A program made the position numbers and the translations under genes. 57,173 nt of DNA from Methylococcaceae bacterium (GTDB taxonomy: Bacteria; Pseudomonadota; Gammaproteobacteria; Methylococcales; Methylomonadaceae), in NCBI GenBank assembly GCA_029937975.1, contig JAPYOW010000009.1, positions 1-57,173 of the forward strand, written 5' to 3'. Below the pieces are notes generated by a model, which searched no databases, was not told the origin of the DNA, and saw nothing but the letters and a program-made list of their open reading frames with translations. Each line of letters opens with the position of its first letter. Position 1 is the first letter of the stretch. Below, piece by piece: positions 27,364 to 30,671 of the stretch.

Positions 27364-27729
27364 TTATTTCATATCGGCACCGCACTTGCCTTCACCACAT
27401 TTGGCTTCTTGGCTTTTAGTGCTGCTGCTGTTGTTGTTTTTTGGCATAGGCTTGTTTCCTGCGCAATTGCCTTCCACTGTTTTTTCTTCGGCACCTTTCA
27501 TCATGCTAGAGCCGCATTTGCCCTCGCCACAGGCACCGTCTTTCATTTTGCTCGTATTTGTTGCATCTGATTTGGCTAATTGCATATAACCGTTAGATAA
27601 TTCAGACAGGGTAAACGGGTTTTCGGCAAAGTCTGTTGCTGTTTCTGCAATGACTGCTGTTGAAGCGAAGCTGGAAATTAGTGTAGTGCTGATAGCCAGG
27701 GCTAATGGTTTGTTGAATGGTTTTGCCAT
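27364..27729 (-). CDS. HvfA-like EGKCG-motif peptide precursor, orphan
   Basis: 121 aa from ATG 27729, preceded by AAAGGAAAATAAC; an upstream in-frame start is not needed. A Sec-type leader (LALAISTTLISSFASTAVIA) is followed by NPFTLSELSNGYMQLA, the conserved block of the HvfA family of secreted low-complexity proteins. The C-terminal half is Lys/Gly/Asn-rich with GACGEGKCG and AKCGEGKCG plus one CAG, five cysteines in all. In characterised systems EGKCG cysteines of such precursors are modified by DUF692 (MNIO) enzymes with a DUF2063 partner and serve copper handling. Neither partner is in this window. A copper role next to pmoCAB is inferred. Confidence 0.82.
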   Translation of the reverse strand: MAKPFNKPLALAISTTLISSFASTAVIAETATDFAENPFTLSELSNGYMQLAKSDATNTSKMKDGACGEGKCGSSMMKGAEEKTVEGNCAGNKPMPKNNNSSSTKSQEAKCGEGKCGADMK

Positions 27730-28060: not shown

Positions 28061-28090
28061 AGGTCTTTCACCTGCAAAGGTGAAAGACCT
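28061..28090 (-). terminator. Strong hairpin terminator of the small membrane gene
   Basis: AGGTCTTTCACCT and AGGTGAAAGACCT pair perfectly over 13 bases with a 4-base loop, followed on the minus strand by TTTATTAATG and, shortly after, TTTTTG. It starts 9 bases beyond the stop codon. Confidence 0.8.
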
Positions 28091-28098
28091 ATAACAAC

Positions 28099-28284
28099 TT
28101 ATTCAGTGAAGTTGTTTTGGTATCTTGTAACACTTTGAAGTGCAGAAGCATTTTCTTCAATTGTTGTGTTACTACGCTCCCAATGCTCAGTTTCACGTTC
28201 TTTTAAAACTAAGATTAGAGAAATTGATACGATAGCTACACCAGCTACGATTTTGTTATAGTTACTTATGCCTTCATCAGCCAT
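28099..28284 (-). CDS. Small single-helix membrane protein, highly expressed
   Basis: 61 aa, family not recognised. A short polar N-terminus (MADEGISNYNK) precedes one hydrophobic helix (IVAGVAIVSISLILVL, about residues 12-27). A charged, helix-prone C-terminal half follows, ending RYQNNFTE. The ATG has the ribosome binding site TGAGGATTCTATA. Codon choice is unlike most neighbours and like pmoCAB: Asn is AAC in five of six, Gln only CAA, Val only GTA/GTT, Arg mainly CGT. With a consensus promoter, a hairpin-rich leader and a perfect terminator, it is a monocistronic, strongly expressed gene. An accessory membrane peptide is plausible; its partner is unknown. Confidence 0.88.
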   Translation of the reverse strand: MADEGISNYNKIVAGVAIVSISLILVLKERETEHWERSNTTIEENASALQSVTRYQNNFTE

Positions 28285-28322
28285 TATAGAATCCTCAGTA
28301 TATTTTTAAAATTATTTTATGT

Positions 28323-28365
28323 CTCCCTTTTTACAGGGAGGCAACTTAATGATTAATCAAGTTGC
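28323..28365 (-). promoter_or_regulatory. Two leader hairpins of the small membrane gene
   Basis: In transcript order: GCAACTT-loop-AAGTTGC (28365 to 28341, 7 bp), then CTCCC-loop-GGGAG (28340 to 28323, 5 bp). They sit between the predicted promoter and the ATG, in a leader of about 110 bases. Such 5' hairpins commonly stabilise abundant mRNAs. Confidence 0.55.
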
Positions 28366-28403
28366 ATGTCGAGTGAATAATTATTTTTGTTCGACGGGTG
28401 TAT

Positions 28404-28432
28404 TTTAAACATATCTTAAGGACAAGTGTCAA
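28404..28432 (-). promoter_or_regulatory. Sigma-70 promoter of the small membrane gene
   Basis: TTGACA (28427-28432) and TTTAAA (28404-28409) are 17 bases apart on the minus strand. The -35 is a perfect consensus. The A/T-rich flanks include an up-element-like run of A on the upstream side (28437-28450). Confidence 0.6.
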
Positions 28433-28701: not shown

Positions 28702-29562
28702 GTGCGAATTTTAAAAATAAAAGTACTTTGTTTATGCTTGATTTGCATTCAACTGAGTGGTTGTGGTCTGTTTATTTCAAATGTGACGCAAGAGTTTGGT
28801 GATAATTTAACGCAGGCGCTACTGAATCATAATGATCCGGAAACCATTGCCAGTGCCATGCCTTCTTTTCTTTTATTATTGGAAACAATGCTCATTAATG
28901 ATCCGGAAAATGAAGCACTACTGTCTTCTGCATCCTCTATGTATGGGGCATACATAGGTTTTTTACATAAGGAAACAGGGAGAGAGCGAGTTTTAAGTAA
29001 TAAAGCCATGGCTTATGCTTTGCGCTCAGTTTGTATTCATCATGATTCTCTTTGTCGGCTGAATGAACAACAATATGATCAGTTTGAACAAAGTATTAAA
29101 CAAACGGATAAGGATGATATTGATGCGCTTTATACTTTGGGTACAGCATGGGCTTTATGGATTCAGAAAAATAAATCAGATTGGAATGCGATTGCGCAGT
29201 TGGCTCAGGTGAAAGCGATTATGTTGCGTATTACGGCATTAGACAAAGGCTATAAAAAAGGTAATGCATTCGCTTATTTAGGTGTGTTAGAAACTATTCT
29301 ACCCCCTGCTTTAGGCGGAGACCCCGAACGAGGGAAGCAGTATTTTGAAACGGCAATGGCTCTTTCTGAAGGAAAAAATTTAATGGTAAAAGTTCTTTTT
29401 GCAGAACAGTACGCTCGAATGATGTTTGATCGTGAATTGCATGATCAATTACTGCATGCTGTCGTTAATGCAACATTGGAAGAGCCGGGCTTAACATTGC
29501 TTAATACCCTGGCTCAAAAGCAGGCAAAGGATTTGTTAACATCTGCTGATGACTATTTTTAA
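28702..29562 (+). CDS. TRAP-transporter TatT-type lipoprotein
   Basis: 286 aa from GTG 28702 (ribosome binding site AAGGGTGTGAT). Lipobox LSGC at Cys21. The mature protein is almost all helical and matches the TatT (T-component) family known from Treponema Tp0956: periplasmic TPR-like repeats form a ring that works with a TRAP substrate-binding protein (LLETMLINDPENEALLSS, YGAYIGFLHKETGRERV, LGVLETILPPALGGDPERG). The substrate-binding protein follows 89 bases downstream. The membrane Q/M subunits are not in the window. Confidence 0.85.
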   Translation: MRILKIKVLCLCLICIQLSGCGLFISNVTQEFGDNLTQALLNHNDPETIASAMPSFLLLLETMLINDPENEALLSSASSMYGAYIGFLHKETGRERVLSNKAMAYALRSVCIHHDSLCRLNEQQYDQFEQSIKQTDKDDIDALYTLGTAWALWIQKNKSDWNAIAQLAQVKAIMLRITALDKGYKKGNAFAYLGVLETILPPALGGDPERGKQYFETAMALSEGKNLMVKVLFAEQYARMMFDRELHDQLLHAVVNATLEEPGLTLLNTLAQKQAKDLLTSADDYF

Positions 29563-29651
29563 ATCAACGCCATCAGCTGTATACTCCGCACGGTCATGTT
29601 TTCATGGGTTGCTGTGGAATTTGTAATCACTAAAAATAATCTAAAATAATA

Positions 29652-30671
29652 ATGTTAAAACAGATAATTGCGATACTTACCCTATCGTTTTTAAGTTATG
29701 GTTCAGTTCAGGCATATACTTTTAAAATCGCCACCTTGTCAACCGATGGTTCAGTCTGGATGGAGAAAATGCGGGCAGGTGCAGAGGAAATCAGTCAAAA
29801 GACAGATAGCCGAGTGAATTTTAAGTTTTACCCTGGTGGTGTGATGGGAGGCGATAAAAATGTGTTAAGGAAAATACGGTTTGGCCAGTTACAGGGGGCT
29901 GCCCTTCCCAGTGCTGGATTGACGGGGATTTATCCTGATATCCAATTGTATAATCTGATTGTTAAGTTCCAGAGCATGAGTGAGATTGATTATGTACGTG
30001 AACAAATGGATGATCAACTCCTTGTGGGCCTCGAAAAAAAAGGGCTGGTTGCCTTCGGTTTTTCTGAAATAGGGCTGGCTTACACAATGTCTACTACTCC
30101 TGTGCATAACATTACGGATTTACAGCAGCTAAAGTCATGGGTGCCTGAGAATAATAAAATTGCAATACAGGCATATAAGGCATTGTCAATCTCGCCGATA
30201 CCGCTTCCTTTGAGAGATGTGTTGATGGGCTTGCAAACGGGTATGATTACGTCTGTTGCTGGAACGCCTACAGGAGCCATTGCGCTGCAGTGGCATACTA
30301 AAATAAAGTATGTGACCGATTCTCCGCTGTCTTATATTTTTGGTGTTTTTTTTCTGGATAAAAAAGCATTTAATAAGATTTCCAAAGCGGATCAGTTGGT
30401 GGTAAGAGAGGTGATGGCGAAAACCGTGAATGAAGTCGATAAGCAAAGTCGCCAGGATAATGTTAACGCAGTGTTGGCGTTAAAAAAACTAGGGGTGGAG
30501 TTTATCGATGTAGAAGATGCAGCGGCAAATGAATTGAAAGCGGTCATGGAATCGGCGAATCAGGAGATTGTAAGCAAGAGCGGCTTATCGAGTCGTTTAG
30601 TTGAAATGCTCGATAAGTATTTGGCGGCGTTTCGCGCACAATCCAGCAGAATAGAAAGCGTGGGTCTTTAA
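29652..30671 (+). CDS. TRAP-transporter substrate-binding protein (DctP/TatP)
   Basis: 339 aa. Signal peptide MLKQIIAILTLSFLSYGSVQA. The mature part is a DctP-family binding protein: FKIATLSTDGSVWMEKMRA, FKFYPGGVMGGDKNVLRKIRF, then domain 2 with LQQLKSWVP, LSISPIPLPLRDVLMGLQTG and YVTDSPLSYIFGVFFLD. It would bind an organic anion in the periplasm; the ligand is not predictable. Paired with a TatT-like lipoprotein, but the DctQ/DctM permease genes are absent nearby. Confidence 0.9.
   Translation: MLKQIIAILTLSFLSYGSVQAYTFKIATLSTDGSVWMEKMRAGAEEISQKTDSRVNFKFYPGGVMGGDKNVLRKIRFGQLQGAALPSAGLTGIYPDIQLYNLIVKFQSMSEIDYVREQMDDQLLVGLEKKGLVAFGFSEIGLAYTMSTTPVHNITDLQQLKSWVPENNKIAIQAYKALSISPIPLPLRDVLMGLQTGMITSVAGTPTGAIALQWHTKIKYVTDSPLSYIFGVFFLDKKAFNKISKADQLVVREVMAKTVNEVDKQSRQDNVNAVLALKKLGVEFIDVEDAAANELKAVMESANQEIVSKSGLSSRLVEMLDKYLAAFRAQSSRIESVGL

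Follow-up and report, generated by a model that had tools for sequence, protein, structure and literature searches.

A 61-codon gene lies on the minus strand at positions 28099–28284 of a 57,173-nucleotide contig from a Methylococcaceae bacterium (JAPYOW010000009.1, assembly GCA_029937975.1; the whole contig is referred to here as the window), and we assign it to T1, the core subfamily of a family of small membrane proteins. The open reading frame (ORF) starts with ATG, and its 61-aa product (MADEGISNYNKIVAGVAIVSISLILVLKERETEHWERSNTTIEENASALQSVTRYQNNFTE) contains a single transmembrane (TM) helix and the motif LKxRETEHW; a periplasmic domain, a signal peptide and cysteines are all absent. A ratio of nonsynonymous to synonymous substitutions (dN/dS) of about 0.1–0.4 in all within-genus pairs indicated that the protein is real and constrained by purifying selection, which bears out the gene call of the original prediction, made from the window alone. 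The single TM helix expected there was recovered in the AlphaFold model (helix 5–52), with a mean predicted local distance difference test score of about 90 only for residues 11–30 and a poorly determined charged tail, which is probably cytoplasmic by the positive-inside rule. The protein has the features that define T1 (an acidic N-terminal stretch, one TM helix, then LKxxETxH, in 61–70 aa), and over 25 sequences M1, K28 and E31 were invariant, with N8, L23, V24, L27 and H34 conserved in at least 90%. No Pfam or NCBIfam model matched the window protein at E ≤ 1, family members gave only scattered weak matches to other families, and no PDB chain of known sequence matched, chains of unknown residues not being searchable; the PDB, Pfam and NCBIfam matches were dismissed as chance TM similarity.

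The gene is equipped with minus-strand expression signals, most of them foreseen in the original prediction. The perfect −35 box (TTGACA, 28432–28427) is kept in 14 of 18 T1 genes, 127–160 nt before the ATG. The window's −10 region (TTTAAAAT, 28402–28409) is poor or degenerate, reading TTTAAA at 17 nt or TAAAAT at 19 nt, so the promoter is perfect at −35 only; most other T1 genes carry CATGATAAAAAT there, a presumptive extended −10. The two predicted leader hairpins, P2 (GCAACTTGATTAATCATTAAGTTGC, 28341–28365) and P3 (CTCCCTGTAAAAAGGGAG, 28323–28340), were confirmed with a minimum free energy of −32.6 kcal/mol (z −5.3; 0 of 200 shuffles equally stable). Across 30 leaders, P2 showed changes on both sides in 7/7 pairs counted, and the two-hairpin structure as a whole showed compensatory double changes in 9/12 pairs, a level reached by 1 of 500 shuffles; 90% of leader cells were paired, whereas shuffles gave 83% and slid structures no more than 63%. 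A covariance model of the leader matched T1 genes in 11 of the 12 genomes searched, with weaker matches elsewhere at E > 0.2, and the twelfth genome (G054) holds only T4, T2 and T3; the window leader, itself in the training set, was matched at E 3e-12. The TTGACA promoter and the structured leader are thus common to the T1 genes, and no Rfam family came close to its gathering score for this leader. The ribosome-binding site (GAGGA, 28292–28296), judged good beforehand, stands 7 nt before the ATG and is invariant in the 30 aligned leaders. Downstream, the predicted 13-bp terminator stem with a 4-nt loop (28061–28090) is present and stable (z −7.2), with a weak U-tract. A possible further stem, P1 (GTCGA/TCGAC flanking an AU-rich loop, 28368–28395), had no covariation support and was dismissed in this respect, its register shifting between genera. 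We dropped control by CsrA through GGA motifs in the ribosome-binding site and P3 loop, since the window and several relatives lack the loop motif.

Codon usage followed pmoCAB and not the adjacent genes, as had been claimed. The codon log-likelihood ratio of T1, pmoCAB versus the 18 other window genes, was +0.336 per codon, whereas the pmo genes scored +0.30 to +0.37 when left out one at a time and the other window genes −0.04 to −0.44. This score was attained by none of 5000 synonymous resamplings and none of 242 windows. In its codons T1 is as close to pmoC, pmoA and pmoB as these three are to one another, and it is unlike all the other genes and 58-codon stretches tested (14–37 kb). The comparison was confined to the window, with ribosomal proteins outside the comparison set, and pmo-like codons are a high-expression usage that by itself forms no specific tie to pmo or to particulate methane monooxygenase (pMMO). 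Such codons show strong translational selection and, by that token, a probably abundant T1 protein. Of the predicted high expression, the gene design is therefore what stands, the actual level being deduced from sequence only. In Methylomonas DH-1 the three pmo genes rank among the ten top transcripts, as do four hypothetical genes without names (PMC6373157); T1 could be one of these four.

The label "orphan" proved wrong, since the gene belongs to a family with hundreds of copies. A single-sequence search of 61 relatives turned up similarly designed short ORFs in many genera, and a 25-sequence profile located the family in 221 of 251 Methylococcales genomes. All 52 near-complete genomes, drawn from positives already found, contained it in 1–4 copies each. 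Among 20 negatives listed, 16 fell in other Methylococcales families (f2, f3, f5, f7 and f8) and four in the Methylomonadaceae-type family that includes the window (f1), and the small-protein family was confined to three Methylococcales families. The negative family f7, which may be Cycloclasticaceae, carries divergent PF02461 genes. Of 369 genomes sampled class-wide, three gave good matches, all of them Methylococcales and including the window genome; the other 366 gave no credible match, the weak remainder being mostly TM segments of longer frames. No copy was found in 40 genomes of the same family as G442, an alphaproteobacterial genome with pMMO, or in 41 genomes of the same family as G357, which with its relatives is probably an ammonia oxidiser; both are weak negatives because those searches held no positive control genome. 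The implied restriction to methanotroph lineages was thus upheld, homologues in non-methanotrophs having been looked for in the class-wide sample and in these two families and not found. On these searches, the unnamed family is one of nearly all gammaproteobacterial methanotrophs and of no other bacteria sampled. Co-occurrence with pMMO inside f1 was dropped as a test, since pmo genes often lie at contig edges of metagenome-assembled genomes and a missing pmoA is uninformative there. Viral contigs, phages and plasmids contained no copies; one beside a phage pmoC would have been strong evidence.

To resolve the family, 60 regions of 24 genomes were fetched; counting the window, 62 copies were read and 58 aligned. 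Two clades were recovered, T1 with T4 versus T2 with T3 (branch support 100/100), and T3 alone was resolved as a single group. T1 occurs in f1 and T4 in f4 and f6; one or the other was present in 25 of the 25 genomes read, T2 and T3 being optional. Only the helix-end lysine and the glutamate three residues later are nearly invariant family-wide. The window's reduced symbiont genome has kept T1, with both leader hairpins, and shows no credible second copy and no recognisable T2 or T3; in related sponge symbionts there is a single pmoCAB operon and XoxF only (PMC6474228). Reduced genomes of another genus (g21) carry two tandem T1-like copies, apparently without the usual leader (L123:247–402 and 742–894 in G028; G179:C33:178300–178886). 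An FNR box (TTGAYNNNNRTCAA, one mismatch allowed) precedes T2 genes in 12 of 14 regions (L066:7900–8225 and 11 others) versus 0.36 expected, usually 77–103 nt before the start, and an fnr-like gene lies near T2 in five loci; T2 is apparently a low-oxygen-regulated member. In eight loci T3 is followed by a secreted, cysteine-containing protein with a signal peptide and the motif TEYIYRDLMANTLPS...CKRIKPGSVGMLPGK (L070:7510–7890 on the minus strand, L067, L074, L106, L109, L111, L120 and L121), for which no Pfam or NCBIfam match was found; the two are possibly a functional pair.

In the window, T1 lies 9.6 kb from pmoCAB, and in a sister symbiont (G001) the cysH-to-pmoB block is collinear, with T1 about 9.3 kb from pmoC. 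The other genomes checked kept only the HvfA-like neighbour, plus a pair related to tripartite ATP-independent periplasmic (TRAP) transporters in one. T1 or T4 and pmoA are separated by hundreds of kb in the majority of complete genomes, and by 33–50 kb in a few of genera g12 and g15, so the 9.6-kb distance is no evidence of function. When the neighbours of the 60 regions were clustered, the only recurrent associations were those of T3 with the secreted protein and of T2 with fnr; no operon partner emerged for T1 or T4, whose genes stand alone. The HvfA-like gene (27364–27729, minus strand) encodes a precursor of a copper-related ribosomally synthesized and post-translationally modified peptide (NCBIfam domain NF050137, E 2e-7) and adjoins T1 in genera g1 and g16 (window, G001, G007, G008, G023 and G167). 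On the other side, a TRAP T-component gene (TAtT, PF16811) followed by a DctP-type binding protein occupies 28702–30671 (plus strand); this pair is collinear in G001 and also stands beside T1 in G167 (L065).

Taken together, methanotroph restriction, a design for abundance, retention in a symbiont reduced to core methanotrophy and an oxygen-responsive isoform promoter make an accessory component of the pMMO membrane the most economical explanation. We tentatively favor an abundant single-pass inner-membrane accessory protein of the system formed by pMMO and the intracytoplasmic membrane (ICM) in gammaproteobacterial methanotrophs, the partner itself being presumptive. It would act as an accessory (supernumerary) subunit, or as an array or stacking partner, of pMMO or of the pMMO-packed ICM. 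Its acidic N-terminus (EKDnFW in most members) would lie at one membrane face, a helix of about 19 residues would cross the membrane, and the nearly invariant K..E would lead into a charged tail on the opposite face, about 30 residues long and helical for the most part. T1/T4 would be the core form, T1 being transcribed alone from a strong promoter through its structured leader; T2 would be a low-oxygen isoform under FNR, exchanged with the core form by isoform switching, and T3 a third isoform, often adjoining the secreted protein.

Several observations weigh against this proposal. T1 and T4 are generally far from pmoCAB across genomes, and outside close relatives no conserved partner adjoins them. 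The family is not present wherever pMMO is: it was not found in G442 and its family, only part of which need have pMMO, and two f2 genomes (G044, G050) and one f1 genome (G026) have pmoA and pmoB and no detectable copy, perhaps owing to assembly fragmentation or to divergence. With as many as four paralogs in a genome, under different promoters, the family could just as well work with several partners. Published bacterial pMMO models comprise PmoA, PmoB and PmoC, according to the summary in PMC10030591. Hence, of the originally suggested pMMO-linked component, methanotroph restriction, expression design and the TM helix stand, whereas a role as pMMO subunit does not follow, pmoCAB linkage not being general and some pMMO-bearing Methylococcales lacking a copy.

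The strongest alternative places the protein in a respiratory complex (terminal oxidase, bc1 or NADH dehydrogenase), as a supernumerary single-TM subunit like CcoQ, CydX or subunit IIa, with isoforms swapped according to oxygen supply. Size and topology suit such a role, and the FNR boxes and nearby fnr-like genes of T2 are what oxygen-responsive respiratory genes would show. We nevertheless consider it unlikely, since in the neighbor survey no member adjoined an operon for an oxidase, bc1 or NADH dehydrogenase, whereas subunit IIa genes sit in the oxidase operon (PMC3128077), and such complexes are common to most Gammaproteobacteria, whereas the family occurs only in three Methylococcales families. 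An ICM structural peptide, with no stoichiometric partner enzyme and a charged tail that packs or spaces the stacked membranes, would agree with the pmo-like codons, the probably cytoplasmic tail and a distribution that appears to cover the type I stacked-membrane families; the tail is poorly predicted, however, and curvature or oligomerisation is unsupported, making this reading improbable. A regulatory role as a small membrane peptide that modulates a transporter or protease, or as a stress peptide, has little probability: many single-TM proteins of 50–70 aa have such roles and the leader is structured like those of regulated genes, but codons at the level of the most expressed enzyme and near-universal retention, even in the reduced symbiont, suggest a structural amount and not a regulator.

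Returning to the accessory pMMO/ICM protein, its boldest form, which we regard as doubtful, is that the pMMO array in the gammaproteobacterial ICM could contain T1/T4 as a single-helix component so far overlooked, with T2 as its FNR-controlled low-oxygen isoform. The activity of pMMO is lost on purification, and we know of no account of what packs it into intracytoplasmic membranes. An in situ map of a gammaproteobacterial pMMO array contains unassigned densities, for which its authors suggested lipid (PMC9445010). If the idea is right, methanotrophs would swap a small subunit of the methane-oxidising membrane according to the oxygen supply. T1, of a kind near-universal in gammaproteobacterial methanotrophs, with pmo-level codons and nameless in the databases searched, offers a concrete, deletable candidate for a missing component, and the FNR-boxed paralog a handle on low-oxygen methane oxidation, where many of these bacteria live.

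Among known systems, the PmoD/AmoD copper proteins are likewise membrane-anchored and found in pMMO organisms; PmoD is a larger periplasmic copper protein, unlike the T1 protein with its lack of a periplasmic domain, signal peptide and cysteines. The T1 family is not the helix of the Rockwell-strain structure, because it did not turn up in the sampled alphaproteobacterial genomes and that strain is an alphaproteobacterial Methylocystis. The unassigned helix of that structure (PMC8098663) is comparable in being a single helix, of unassigned origin, associated with pMMO. Single-TM oxidase subunits (subunit IIa, PMC3128077; CcoQ, CydX) share the size, the single helix and, with T2, the oxygen-responsive promoter; in contrast to subunit IIa, encoded in oxidase operons, the T1 family showed neither oxidase neighbors nor a match of the window protein to a small-subunit profile in Pfam or NCBIfam. 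AmoX, AmoY and AmoZ of archaeal ammonia monooxygenase show that a copper membrane monooxygenase can have small subunits recognised only late (PMC10030591), and although the T1 family lacks general linkage to pmo, it resembles them as a set of small membrane proteins, apparently highly expressed, in one copper-membrane-monooxygenase lineage.
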